From contig JAENYP010000007.1 in NCBI GenBank assembly GCA_016841725.1, forward strand, positions 62,001-126,000: 64,000 nucleotides of DNA. The letters are read 5' to 3'. A program made the translations under genes and the position numbers. Below the pieces are notes generated by a model, which searched no databases, was not told the origin of the DNA, and was given only the letters and a program-made list of their open reading frames with translations. Position 1 is the stretch's first letter. Each line of letters begins with the position of its first letter. This DNA is from Thermincola carboxydiphila (lineage in GTDB: Bacteria; Bacillota; Thermincolia; Thermincolales; UBA2595). Shown in pieces: positions 13,879 through 62,700 of the stretch.

Positions 13879-14064
13879 TTAAAAGGAAATTTCGAAAGCT
13901 GACCCATATGTTAAATGCACAGCAATTCCTCCTGCCACGCTGACGAGGTTAGCTGTCGGATTCGGAAGGAAGAGTCCCCCTACCCACAATACTGTGAGAT
14001 TCACCCCATTTATTTGGTTCCCCCGCATCCCGGCGAAAAACCGGAGATTTAAGCGTACTTCCAA
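13879..14064 (-). CDS. Small hydrophobic protein of unknown function (61 residues)
   Basis: A 61-residue product from a TTG start, rich in Gly, Val and Asn (VLWVGGLFLPNPTANLVSVAGGIAVHL). No clear ribosome-binding site is seen, which lowers confidence. A terminator immediately downstream in the same direction and the protein-like composition support a real small gene. I do not recognise the family. Confidence 0.45.
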   Translation of the reverse strand: MEVRLNLRFFAGMRGNQINGVNLTVLWVGGLFLPNPTANLVSVAGGIAVHLTYGSAFEISF

Positions 14065-14172
14065 TATGCATTTTTAGTATTTATATTATATCACAGCACC
14101 TATATCCGGTCAAACACCCCTCTGATTAAATCCATAAAAGAGCTTTATACAACAACATATGAAAGCCGAAGG

Positions 14173-35478: not shown

Positions 35479-35667
35479 TTATTCTTCTTTAATGGCGCCC
35501 GTAGGGCATCCATCTACAGCCTCATGAGCCAGCTCTTCCATACCGGACGGCACTTCAGGGACTTTGGCCACAGCTTTGTCTTCATTGCCCCATTCAAAGA
35601 CATCGGGACAGGTGTTGATACACATACCACAACTGACACAGACATTATCAATAACTTCGACCTTCAT
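35479..35667 (-). CDS. Single-cluster [4Fe-4S] ferredoxin
   Basis: A 62-residue ferredoxin. The cluster ligands are CVSCGMCINTCP and the distal CPTGAI; the second cluster site is lost, giving the one-cluster (Fd-IV/thermophile-like) type. It carries low-potential electrons. It follows the HMA selenoprotein gene by 43 bases on the same strand and may be its partner or share its transcript. Confidence 0.93.
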   Translation of the reverse strand: MKVEVIDNVCVSCGMCINTCPDVFEWGNEDKAVAKVPEVPSGMEELAHEAVDGCPTGAIKEE

Positions 35668-35710: not shown

Positions 35711-36307
35711 TTATGGTCCCATGTCCTTGGAATTATTCAGGTCATTGGAATTGTTCAGCCTGTCACCCATACCCCCTAAAAAACTGCGCACACCCGGAAA
35801 TATAATGATTTCGGCAACTGCCCCGGCAAACTCTTCTCCCCTTGGGGAACCGGCTCCGTAGTAAACTTCGAATTCCTCCCGTGCCGGATGAAAGTCAACT
35901 TTAGTTACCCCGTCGAACCCTTCCAGGGTCTGTCTGACACGCCTGACTCACCCGCCGCACAACAGACCGGTTACGGACAGTAATACCTTGCGTTCTCCCG
36001 GATTCAGTTCCGCATCTGATAAAACCGTGACCTCAGGATCAACGAGAACATTCCGCGCACCGGGGCCCCGGCCTTCCCGGGCAGACCGGCGCTGTCCGTG
36101 GGGCTCCTCTTTCATAGTACACTGGCGGCATCCATTATCGATAGCTTTACCGGCAGCTACAAAAGGAGTGCTGACCAAATCTTCAGCCACATCCATCATC
36201 TGTTTGCCCGTCGTATTCCTGTCATCCAACAGCTTACGCGCCGCCTTCAGCGGCAGGAGCGCCAGTGACTGGTTCAACCTGATGAATTCCTTAAAAATAC
36301 TCAGCAT
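35711..36307 (-). CDS. HMA-domain selenoprotein (UGA readthrough), CGGU motif
   Basis: The frame from 36307 meets TGA at 35948-35950, then continues open to TAA at 35711-35713, giving 198 residues with selenocysteine at 120. The C-terminal half is a heavy-metal-associated (HMA) fold: KVLLSVTGLLCGGU, then VRRVRQTLEGFDGVTKVDFHPAREEFEVYY. In HMA proteins the motif is GMxCxxC; here the second Cys is replaced by UGA, giving Cys117-Gly-Gly-Sec120. Without readthrough the domain would be cut in its metal loop. The N-terminal half is amphipathic with a further CRQC (60-63). A stem-loop follows the UGA (35916-35930). A Sec-formate dehydrogenase elsewhere in the window shows that selenium use is plausible. 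Confidence 0.8.
35916..35930 (-). promoter_or_regulatory. Candidate SECIS hairpin of the HMA selenoprotein
   Basis: On the minus strand GACCC pairs with GGGTT around the five-base loop TGGAA, 17 nt after the UGA; outer GTC/GAC may extend it. Guanines in the loop and the short spacing are compatible with bacterial SECIS elements, which sit just after the UGA. Confidence 0.55.
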
Positions 36308-36432: not shown

Positions 36433-37194
36433 CTAAAAGGACTTACCAAACTCCGGGGTGGCATCTGACTTTTTTCCTATTCCGACTGTCAGGCAGTTTT
36501 TAGGGCAGTTGTTGACACACTCAGTACATAAGATGCATTCCGGGTGCGAGACCCGCTGTCCTGCTGTGATGTATTCCATTATCGGTACATCCATTGGACA
36601 GACTTCTTCACACCTGCGGCACCTGCTGCAGGACAGATGATTTTTTTCAATTTTCAGGACACTCTTGGGAGAAGTCAGGGTCATTAATGCCCCCGCAGGA
36701 CATAAGTACTTGCAAAATGCCCTGCGGTCCCCCAAAAACAATGCCAGGACCGTTCCCACCAGATATATCAGAGCATTTTCCGTCAACAGCCACTTAAACT
36801 GGGCTTCCGGACTCAGGAAACTGTATCCTGCAGCAATAAAGAAACCCGGGACAACCAGTGCGATTATAAGAACCACATATTTGTACATAAAGTGCTTTTC
36901 CGGAATTCTTTTTTTTACCTTTCTGATAGGCAGCAGCTCGAAAAGCGAAGCATTCCAGCACACCCAGCCGCAAAAGCCGCGGCCGAACAGCAGGGGACCG
37001 AAAAATTTCGCCATGGCAACATGTATGATTGCCCCGGTAAATACACCTGCAAACATGTTAAAGACAATCTGGCTTAGCTGCAGATTGCTTTTCCCTGAAA
37101 TGAAATGAACACCCCAGTAAAACAGAGTGAAAAACAGCAAGAAAGCCAAACGGGTTGATATTACCGGTGATTTCCTTTTTACCGGTCCATTCAT
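36433..37194 (-). CDS. NapH/MauN-like membrane polyferredoxin
   Basis: A 253-residue protein with about four to five helices. Characteristic membrane cysteines lie in GRGFCGWVCWNASLFELLP and AFCKYLCPAGAL, the NapH/CcoG signature. The C-terminal cytoplasmic part holds two [4Fe-4S] sites (CSRCRRCEEVCP and CILCTECVNNCP). It passes electrons across or along the membrane. It is 20 bases downstream of the aldo/keto reductase-ferredoxin gene and 125 bases upstream of the selenoprotein, all on the minus strand. Confidence 0.85.
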   Translation of the reverse strand: MNGPVKRKSPVISTRLAFLLFFTLFYWGVHFISGKSNLQLSQIVFNMFAGVFTGAIIHVAMAKFFGPLLFGRGFCGWVCWNASLFELLPIRKVKKRIPEKHFMYKYVVLIIALVVPGFFIAAGYSFLSPEAQFKWLLTENALIYLVGTVLALFLGDRRAFCKYLCPAGALMTLTSPKSVLKIEKNHLSCSRCRRCEEVCPMDVPIMEYITAGQRVSHPECILCTECVNNCPKNCLTVGIGKKSDATPEFGKSF

Positions 37195-37214: not shown

Positions 37215-38225
37215 CTATTTTTCCAGGTAAGTTTCCGCTTCTTTTAACATTTCCCTAATTGGCAGGCTGTAAGGACATTTTTCCTCACACTCCCCGCAGT
37301 CAGCGCAATCAGATATTTTAGCCGGCAACGGCTGGTAGCGTTCCATAGCCCACTCCTGCAATCCATAACGAGTCGAATAACCCTGCAGCAAAAAAATTGT
37401 CGGGATATCTATGCCCCTGGGGCATGGCTGACAATACTCACATCTGCGGCAGAATTTCCGTCCCAATAGTTCTGTTTCTTCATCCAGGAGGCTTTTCTCC
37501 TCACCTGACAATACGGAATCCGTCTGTCCTGCAGTAATATTTTCAACAACCTGAGAAACTTCATCCATTCCGGGAATCGCCGTTGTAAATCCGCTTTCAA
37601 GGATGAATTTCAGGCAGGAAGCCTTATTTTTAAAAGCTCCCCCGGCAAACGGCTTCATAGCTATCGTCCCCATGTCCATTTCCCTGGCCAGCGGCAGGAG
37701 TTCATCAAGGGCAGCAGTTTCCACGGGGTTAAACGGGAGCTGCACAGTATCAAACTCACCTGTCTTGATTACCTTCACAAGTATTTTGGCTATGTGGCCG
37801 GTAACACCGATAAAACGTATTTTCCCACTGCTCCTGGCATCCTGAAGGGCCTCCAGAGCGCCTCCCGGAGCCAACACCTTTTCCAGGCTCCCTTCATCCT
37901 TAACATTGTGCAGCTGATATAAGTCTATGTAGTCAGTCTTCATTTCCCTGAGGCTTATGTCAATATCCCGCGCCATATCCTTCCTGCTTCTGGCCATGGA
38001 TTTTGTTGCTATTATTAGTTTATTCCGGTGGCTTCCAATAATCGCCCCCAGCTTGGACTCACTATCGGTATAAGCCCTGGCGGTATCAATGAAGTTAATT
38101 CCACCGGATACTGCTGCCTCAACTACCTTGACTGCCTGGTCAGAGCTGATTCTCTGAATGGGAATGCCCCCAAAACCTACCACAGAAACCTGTAAATCTG
38201 TTTTTCCCAGCCTTCGCAACTGCAT
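37215..38225 (-). CDS. Aldo/keto reductase with C-terminal ferredoxin domain
   Basis: A 336-residue protein. Residues 1-250 form the AKR barrel: FGGIPIQRI at the start, FIDTARAYTDSE (catalytic Asp/Tyr), KSMARSRKDMARD with the catalytic Lys, YIDLYQLHNV. Residues about 270-330 carry a two-cluster-like ferredoxin region (CRRCEYCQPCPRGIDI and CADCGECEEKCPYSLPI). This clostridial AKR-Fd fusion probably couples carbonyl reduction to Fe-S electron carriers. The NapH-like gene follows after 20 bases. Confidence 0.88.
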   Translation of the reverse strand: MQLRRLGKTDLQVSVVGFGGIPIQRISSDQAVKVVEAAVSGGINFIDTARAYTDSESKLGAIIGSHRNKLIIATKSMARSRKDMARDIDISLREMKTDYIDLYQLHNVKDEGSLEKVLAPGGALEALQDARSSGKIRFIGVTGHIAKILVKVIKTGEFDTVQLPFNPVETAALDELLPLAREMDMGTIAMKPFAGGAFKNKASCLKFILESGFTTAIPGMDEVSQVVENITAGQTDSVLSGEEKSLLDEETELLGRKFCRRCEYCQPCPRGIDIPTIFLLQGYSTRYGLQEWAMERYQPLPAKISDCADCGECEEKCPYSLPIREMLKEAETYLEK

Positions 38226-59794: not shown

Positions 59795-62700
59795 TAGCCA
59801 GCCCTCCTTACATCGACCAAGAAGGCCTTATATTCAGGAATCATTGTATTACCGTCACCGATATGAGGAGTGAGTTTATTGGCAGTCTCGCCTGTGGCAA
59901 TCCCCTTAAACCCATAGTGCCACGGCAGTCCCACCTGGTGGACCGTGCGCCCGCCCAGATCAAAGGCCTCAAAACGCTTGGTAACCATAGCATAACACTT
60001 TATTTCACCCCGGGCAGATTTCACGAACACCATGTCACCATTGTTAATTCCCTTTTCATTGGCCAGGTCTTCGCCGATTTCCACAAACATGTCAGGGAAA
60101 AGCTCTGCCAGCCATGGTACATTTCTGGTCATAGCGCCTGCCTGCCAGTGCTCGGAAAGCCGGTAAGTTGTGGCCACTATCGGGAATTTATCAGGAGTAC
60201 CCATTTCTTCGGGACGCCACACCTTAACAACAGGGTTAAGCAGTTGTCCTGAAAAAGGGTTTTTATCCAGAGGGGTATCCCATGGTTCATAATGTTCCGG
60301 GAGGGGCCCTTCTTTCATGGCGTTTGTTCCAAAAATGCCTCCAAGGCCTTCGGGTCTCATGATAAACGGGTTGCAGCCCCCTGGACTTGTAGGGGCAAGA
60401 GTACCATTAAAGTCAGGCACATCTTCACCAAGCCACTTGCTCTGGAAGGAATCCCACCAGATAACTGCCTTATCGGCAACCCAAGGGCTGCCAGTTAAGT
60501 CGGCAGAGCACCTGTTATAGATAATCCGCCTGTTGGCCGGCCAGGAAAAGGACCAGTTCAGGTAGGTCCCGATTTTTGATTTATCCTTGTTATCTCTTCT
60601 TTGGGTGAGATTCTTGCCTTCTTCCGGATACATCCCGGACATGATCCAGTTTCCGGAACATGTGGAACCGTCATCCTTCAGTTTGGCAAATCCGGGAACC
60701 AGTTTTCCTGTGGTGGTATCATAACCGTTAATTTCACGGGACACCTTATCTATATCACAGGCGCCCTGACCATAATCCCAGAGGAGGTCACGGATTGGTG
60801 CGTCTTCGGGCTTAGCTGAACCTGCATAGAGCTTTTTCAACACATTGCCCAGTTCATTAATGATATCAAGGTCAGCCTTCGATTCACCTGCCGGTTCGAC
60901 ACCCTTCCACCGCCACTGAATCCAACGCCCGCTGTTTGAGACAGTGCCTTCCTTCTCATAGGAAGCACATGCCGGCAGGAGGAACACCTCAGTTTTGATT
61001 GCAGCCGGGTTGGCCCCGGGACGATTCCAGAAGGCTGCAGTCTCAGTCTCCCAGAGGTCCACCCCAACCATCCAGTCCAGGTTCTCCAGGGCTTTGGCCT
61101 CCAGGTCTGAATTGGGTCCGCCCACCACCGGGTTCTGTCCAAAGGCAAACAACCCCTTCAGATCACCTTTGGCAGCAGCCTCAAACAGCGCTATGTGTGA
61201 GTAGTTTTTGGCTGCATTCAATTTAGGCAGGTAATGGTAAGCAAATTCATTATCCTTACTAGCAGCACTGCCCCAGAAAGCTTTAAGCATACTTACCATA
61301 AACTTGGGCTTATTGGACCAGTAACCGGTTTTGGGGGTTTCCTTATCCAGGTATGCCTGGAGTGTTGCATGTTCTGGTTTGGCTGCAGGTGTGCCGATAT
61401 ATCCCGGCAGGATATGAAACAACAGAGCCATATCAGTGGAACCCTGAACATTGGATTCACCACGCATGGCATTGACCCCGCCGCCGGGTCTCCCGATATT
61501 GCCCAGGAGAAGCTGCAGCATTGCATAGGAGCGAACATTCTGTGACCCCACGGTATGCTGGGTTGTCCCCATCGCATACATAACAGTCATAGTCTTATCC
61601 TTGGCCGCCGTTGCAGCTACATTTTCCAGGACCTTTTTGTAAACATCCCTGGGTGTGCCGGTTACTTTGCAAACTGTGTCAATATCGTACCGCTCATAGT
61701 GCTTTTTCATCAGGTTAAGCACACAGAAAGGATTGGCTAAAGTCATATCCTTTAAGGGTTTGCCTTCAGAATCGGTCTGGTATTTCCAGGTATCAACAGT
61801 GTAACTCCGCTTTTCCGGGTTATATCCGCTGAAGAGACCGTCTTCGAATTTATAACCGGGATTAATGAGCAGCGGAGCATTAGTATAATTAAGGACATAT
61901 TCCTTATGATACAGTCCATTCTGCAGGATGTGATTAAATATCCCGCCTATGAAGGCTATGTCAGTGCCTGAGCGTAACTTGGCATAAATATCTGCCTTGG
62001 CCGATGTCCTGGTAAACCGCGGGTCTACATGGATAATTTGGGCGCCCCTGTCCTCTTTGGCCTTGTTAAGCCACTTGAATGAAATGGGGTGGTTTTCTGC
62101 AGGGTTTGCTCCAATAATCAGGGCGAGATCTGTGTTTTTCAAATCAATCCAGTGGTTTGTCATTGCCCCTCTTCCAAATGATGGCGCCAGACCGGCAACC
62201 GTGGAAGAGTGTCAGATACGCGCCTGGTGTTCAATAAATACCAGGCCCATTCCTCTCATGAGTTTTTGCAGCAGATAGCATTCTTCATTGTCCAGAGCGG
62301 CGCCGCCCAGGCACCCTATAGCCTCAGTCCGGTTAACAGCTATATCAAGAGCTTGTCCGGTCTTGGAATCAGTCACTGTATCCCTGACTGTAAAGTTTGC
62401 ATCCCTGGTGCCTTTTGCTTTTTCAGCAATCTTTTCAATCATCCATTCCCAGTCTTTTTCTTCCCATTTGTCACTACCGGGAGCCCTGTAAAGGGGCTTT
62501 TTCAGCCTTCTCTCATTTTCATGCAGCTGATAAACAGCTGCTCCCTTACTGCAGAGTGAGCCCTGATTAATTGGATGGTCAGGGTCTCCTTCGGTATTAA
62601 CCAGCTTACCGTTTTCGTTGTAAACCAAAATACCGCAGCCAACACTGCAGTACGGGCAAATTGTAGGGGTCGCCTTGGCCGACTTGATTTTCAACCCCTG

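Follow-up and report, generated by a model that had tools for sequence, protein, structure and literature searches.

Ordinary HMA chaperones bind metal through two thiolates. The protein described here, HMA-Sec, has the same predicted fold and ligand positions as the CopZ/Atx1-type chaperones and the HMA domains of Cu-ATPases, but a predicted selenocysteine (Sec) stands where they have their second Cys, the GMTC motif is replaced by GLLC or GLIC, and the HMA domain differs from CopZ at its C-terminal end. CopZ models score 24-26 bits on the protein, below their cut-offs of 85-95. The source genome encodes a separate, all-Cys CopZ-like protein (GMTCNHC), and HMA-Sec is therefore not the housekeeping CopZ. 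MerP likewise shares the HMA fold (1osd, Z 9.5), but its model gives 19.7 bits against a cut-off of 92.55 and there are no mer genes among the listed HMA-Sec neighbours.

Among described families, NF041115 (UxxU metal-binding (seleno)protein) comes closest: it too is of HMA type and carries Sec in its metal loop, and in NCBIfam it ranks first or nearly first for 15 of the 16 HMA-Sec members. That family has two Sec residues (UxxU) in a 74-position model, whereas HMA-Sec has one, in a CxxU or CxxxU loop, and carries extra N-terminal parts; on the protein studied here NF041115 reaches 32.4 bits, below its cut-off of 95, and the UxxU motif is absent. No NCBIfam model reaches its cut-off on this protein. 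The Sec-type E1-E2 ATPases (UxxC) and MerT-like transport proteins of the 2026 inventory also combine metal handling with Sec in a Cys-pair motif, whereas HMA-Sec is small and has neither an ATPase nor a MerT domain. The CxxU/CxxxU HMA type is absent from that inventory of 119 selenoprotein families or subfamilies, with most subscription papers lying outside the search, and HMA-Sec would thus add this type to the selenoproteome. A P-type metal ATPase gene of the source genome (L061:5016-7295, contig C33) was considered as a Sec-type ATPase and rejected; the codons that interrupt its frame are TAG and TAA rather than UGA, and the gene is therefore probably decayed and not a Sec gene.

The HMA-Sec gene and its read-through product

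HMA-Sec lies on the minus strand of the window, the whole 64-kb stretch of DNA that was analysed. Its frame runs from an ATG at 36307 to a TAA at 35711-35713 (198 codons) with a single in-frame UGA at 35948-35950, as the first-pass annotation had described, together with the loop motif. Under the standard code the frame stops at the UGA after 119 codons, and a further 78 codons are open to the TAA, so gene calling that treats UGA only as a stop would truncate HMA-Sec. The UGA is codon 120 and falls at the second ligand (Cys) position of the HMA loop, GLLC(117)-GG-U(120)-VRRV; the residues around it read LLCGG-U-VRRVRQTLEGFDGVTKVDFHPA. The features of the gene are as follows.

35711..36307, minus strand: HMA-Sec gene, one in-frame UGA and then TAA (frame, homologues)
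35948..35950, minus strand: UGA codon 120, read as Sec (UGA in 16/16 homologues)
35804..35995, minus strand: HMA domain, residues 105-168, loop C117-GG-U120 (Pfam PF00403, fold match Z 9.7-9.8)
36122..36307, minus strand: predicted N-terminal two-helix domain, residues 1-62, long forms only (model, weak profile matches)
36119..36130, minus strand: CRQC pair, residues 60-63 (CxxC in 6/9 long forms)
35916..35930, minus strand: SECIS-like hairpin, 6-bp stem, loop GGA, loop start 23 nt after the UGA (homologue alignment)

Pfam PF00403 matches the read-through protein at 28.1 bits (cut-off 24.8) over residues 110-144, spanning profile positions 2-36 of 62. The protein was modelled with AlphaFold2 (16-row alignment). 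Over residues 91-160 the pLDDT values are 91-95, apart from the block 111-120 with 80, and the two N-terminal helices reach about 66-75. The model and its structure matches predict the HMA beta-alpha-beta-beta-alpha fold; besides MerP, the matches include human ATP7B (Z 9.8) and the CopZ-type metallochaperone 2qif (Z 9.7), all three with an rmsd of 1.6-1.7 over 64-65 residues, and the profile matches to Cu-ATPases and CopZ agree. The top Foldseek row, an RNA polymerase L subunit, was discounted, with an rmsd of 7.6 versus about 1.6-2.4 for the HMA rows.

The CRQC pair noticed upstream in the first pass does exist at residues 60-63, but it is not general, a CxxC being present in only six of the nine long-form homologues. 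Short forms (103-110 residues) are without the N-terminal domain. Weak matches to this domain (E about 1e-5 to 1e-3) come from small stand-alone proteins (L112, L113, L114, and L116) in which the helix motif [LM]P[FL]xxxR is repeated.

Evidence for selenocysteine at codon 120

Frames open across a UGA are common in the window (18 UGAs with at least 80 open codons before and at least 60 after), and proteins were recognised across only two of them, HMA-Sec and the fdhA at 62212; the case for HMA-Sec therefore rests on homology and not on openness. Homologues were sought by profile search in 398 sampled genomes of one bacterial phylum (E up to 1e-10) and were found in 16, each with one UGA at the codon-120 column. 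Their identity to the window protein runs from 90% down to 32%, and the sample is therefore diverse. Within the source's family, a read-through search found HMA-Sec in eight of nine genomes, and the ninth, G008, is only 63% complete.

Both C117 and U120 are invariant, so that the first loop ligand is Cys in 16/16 and the predicted two-ligand metal loop is present throughout; the loop is CGGU in nine members, CDAU, CGLU, and CFLU in one each, and CxxxU in four (CYTLU, CYSLU, CYSVU), giving CxxU spacing in 12/16 and CxxxU in 4/16. The invariant residues include P82, N86, P91, V112, G114, L115, C117, U120, V121, R123, and V124. Homologues that end at the UGA, or that lose conservation past it, would have spoken against the first-pass reading; instead, the family is conserved through the codon and beyond. 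A comparison of the window gene with L008 (Ks above 1) gave a Ka/Ks of 0.07 on either side of the UGA, with 12 nonsynonymous and 30 synonymous differences downstream, which excludes a dead tail.

No Cys occurs at the Sec column among the 16 homologues, and no Cys orthologue was found in the 398 genomes. Class-level searches around G046 and G097 gave no further members and no Cys forms, the DNA pattern V-x-G-[hydrophobic]-x-[C/U]-xx-UGA-V-x-R-V...L-E was found on six contigs with no new members, and a single-protein peptide-pattern scan of the genome contigs returned zero relatives, its patterns lying in variable stretches. The alternation of Sec and Cys at position 120 that the first-pass annotation had looked to for support is thus absent within the family, because all 16 homologues have the UGA; the only Sec/Cys pairing is with ordinary HMA domains, which carry Cys at the aligned position. 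With 16 Sec and no Cys members, HMA-Sec would be a clean case for what selenium adds to a metal-chaperone fold.

The mRNA just past the UGA can form a hairpin in which positions 21-26 pair with 30-35 (U of UGA = 1) and close a loop of three bases, which in most members reads GGA. Across the 16 homologues 93 of 96 cells are paired. Randomising synonymous codons with the amino acids fixed, a procedure that treats the sequences as independent, left 72.7 paired cells on average and 84 at most in 2000 sets, and sliding the hairpin along the mRNA gave at most 64. Two-sided (compensatory) changes occur in four of the six stem pairs, and the observed covariation score was reached by none of 500 shuffles. 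The published bSECIS model has a loop of 3-9 nt, a stem of 4-16 bp, a G in the first two loop positions, and a spacing of 16-37 nt (PMC13188914), and the HMA-Sec hairpin (6 bp, GGA, 23 nt) falls within these limits. In the homologue L015 three of the six pairs are lost, and the window's own hairpin sequence has competing folds; the hairpin is therefore backed by the set more than by any single sequence.

The Sec machinery for which a check had been proposed is complete in the source genome, which encodes selA, selB, two selD genes each with its own in-frame UGA, and a tRNA-Sec with anticodon UCA. Formate dehydrogenase genes with a classic Sec UGA lie in the window, as the first pass had noted, and also near selB, on the contig that carries it. 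The former gives internal evidence of Sec use.

62212..62214, minus strand: fdhA Sec UGA, EHQARI-U-H (open frame and formate dehydrogenase match)

The machinery was tested further in 11 genomes carrying HMA-Sec. SelB was above cut-off in 11/11, and selA and a clear tRNA-Sec (over 71 bits) were present in all except the incomplete G006, whose best tRNA-Sec match (50 bits) resembles the secondary matches of other genomes. From the UGA, the continuation past it, the hairpin, and the machinery, we infer that codon 120 almost certainly inserts Sec and that HMA-Sec is a selenoprotein. The hairpin would direct SelB and tRNA-Sec(UCA) to place Sec at residue 120.

Possible roles of the Cys-Sec loop

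The product would comprise a helical N-terminal domain and an HMA domain exposing a metal loop of the form C-x(2-3)-U instead of CxxC. The genes around it are those named in the first pass.

35479..35667, minus strand: 62-aa [4Fe-4S] ferredoxin gene, directly downstream of HMA-Sec
36433..37194, minus strand: NapH-like membrane polyferredoxin gene (profile matches)
37215..38225, minus strand: aldo-keto reductase fused to a 4Fe-4S domain (profile matches)

The ferredoxin gene adjoins HMA-Sec downstream in 9/9 Thermincola-clade genomes having HMA-Sec, the measured gaps being a few tens of bases, and the aldo-keto reductase-ferredoxin fusion is upstream in 8/9; the NapH-like gene adjoins HMA-Sec in the genus and is displaced or not found nearby in the others. 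Outside this clade, the neighbours in G117 are a FixX-like ferredoxin and an ETF-QO-like flavoprotein, and a rubrerythrin-like gene is near HMA-Sec in G131. No metal transporter gene adjoins HMA-Sec within the window.

The best overall explanation, to which we give slightly better than even chances, is that HMA-Sec is a Sec protein that binds a soft metal through Cys and Sec with a ferredoxin as partner. Soft-metal binding is favoured because of the HMA fold and its ligand positions, and a metal-binding role as such, with the metal likewise predicted, is about evenly balanced. The ion, Cu(I) or a similar thiophilic metal, would most likely be held by one thiolate and one selenolate, and the adjoining [4Fe-4S] ferredoxin, as a putative partner, may serve to hold the Cys-Sec pair in its reduced state or to exchange electrons with it. 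The first-pass annotation had proposed that the selenol may handle copper, mercury, or persulfide. Counting against this explanation as a whole are the lack of a Cys orthologue that would give a direct Sec/Cys pair within the family and the competing folds of the window's own hairpin; against the metal site count the CxxxU loops of four members, a spacing unusual for an HMA metal site, the replacement of the Met-Thr of GMTC by Leu-Leu/Ile, an HMA domain end unlike that of CopZ, and the lack of an adjoining metal transporter gene.

The same unusual spacing, along with the ferredoxin or FixX-like genes adjoining HMA-Sec in the Thermincola clade and G117 and the predominance of redox proteins among known selenoproteins (2026 inventory), is consistent with HMA-Sec being a redox carrier and not binding metal; the Cys-Sec pair would then cycle between selenenylsulfide and reduced forms, taking electrons from ferredoxin to reduce a disulfide, a persulfide, or a metalloid. 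The ferredoxin neighbours favour either such a role or a need to keep the Cys-Sec pair of a metal site reduced. The predicted fold, however, is HMA and not thioredoxin-like, and variable CxxU/CxxxU spacing is also ill-suited to a strict redox motif, so that a redox carrier is a serious but somewhat doubtful alternative.

A third reading places HMA-Sec in a membrane assembly, for example one that stores or sequesters metal, with HMA-Sec delivering or withdrawing it. It derives from two small glycine-zipper proteins, (a) and (b), which flank HMA-Sec in four genomes (G046, G087, G122, and G097) in two gene orientations and occur elsewhere as a fused (a)-(b) form.

L079:7252-8106, L060:8227-9086, L081:8727-9598, and L080:933-2031: separate (a)/(b) loci
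L117:7021-7524 and L119:6226-6648: fused (a)-(b) form

A profile of (a) matched 14 of the 398 genomes. HMA-Sec is present in 13 of these, and the one without it is the incomplete G008 of the source's own family; Fisher's test gives p about 1e-20 for this co-occurrence, but the genomes represent only about three independent lineages. Depending on the genome, a rubrerythrin-like gene, a multihaem cytochrome, a FIST-GGDEF-HD protein, or a Pro/Met-rich protein is found near the fused form, and the rubrerythrin-like type, present there in several Thermincola-clade genomes, recurs near HMA-Sec in G131. Against such an assembly, neither (a) nor (b) matched a family in a Pfam search, the fused gene of the Thermincola clade lies far from HMA-Sec, and (a) was not found in the HMA-Sec genomes G011, G117, and G131. 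We consider the assembly unlikely. A link to ferrosomes was considered and dropped, the paper search having given only plant HMA or metal papers.

A more speculative proposal, which we rate as rather improbable, joins these elements in a Sec-obligate HMA family whose selenium would be kept for chemistry beyond CxxC, such as ferredoxin-coupled metal release or selenide/persulfide transfer, together with an undescribed glycine-zipper (a)/(b) membrane assembly. Finally, that the UGA is a real stop, ending a 119-residue protein or marking a decayed gene with a dead tail, agrees with the standard code and with the chance frequency of frames open across UGA, but it is very nearly untenable against conservation past the UGA in 16/16 homologues with Ka/Ks of 0.07, a covarying hairpin, and a cut that would fall inside the metal loop of the HMA domain.

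Minor observations

Rfam searches gave two riboswitch matches on the minus strand of the window, a c-di-AMP riboswitch at 13923-14065 (95 bits) and a c-di-GMP-I riboswitch at 1525-1618 (67.8 bits). The Pro/Met-rich protein beside the fused glycine-zipper gene is of low complexity, with MPPVMMPP-type repeats (L117:7548-7961, L121:7290-7808, L122:6009-6428, and L120:2763-3182). Beside the glycine-zipper locus of G001, L118:7248-8348 contains repeated translated motifs (FNPYYPGIQSET) resembling a CRISPR array.
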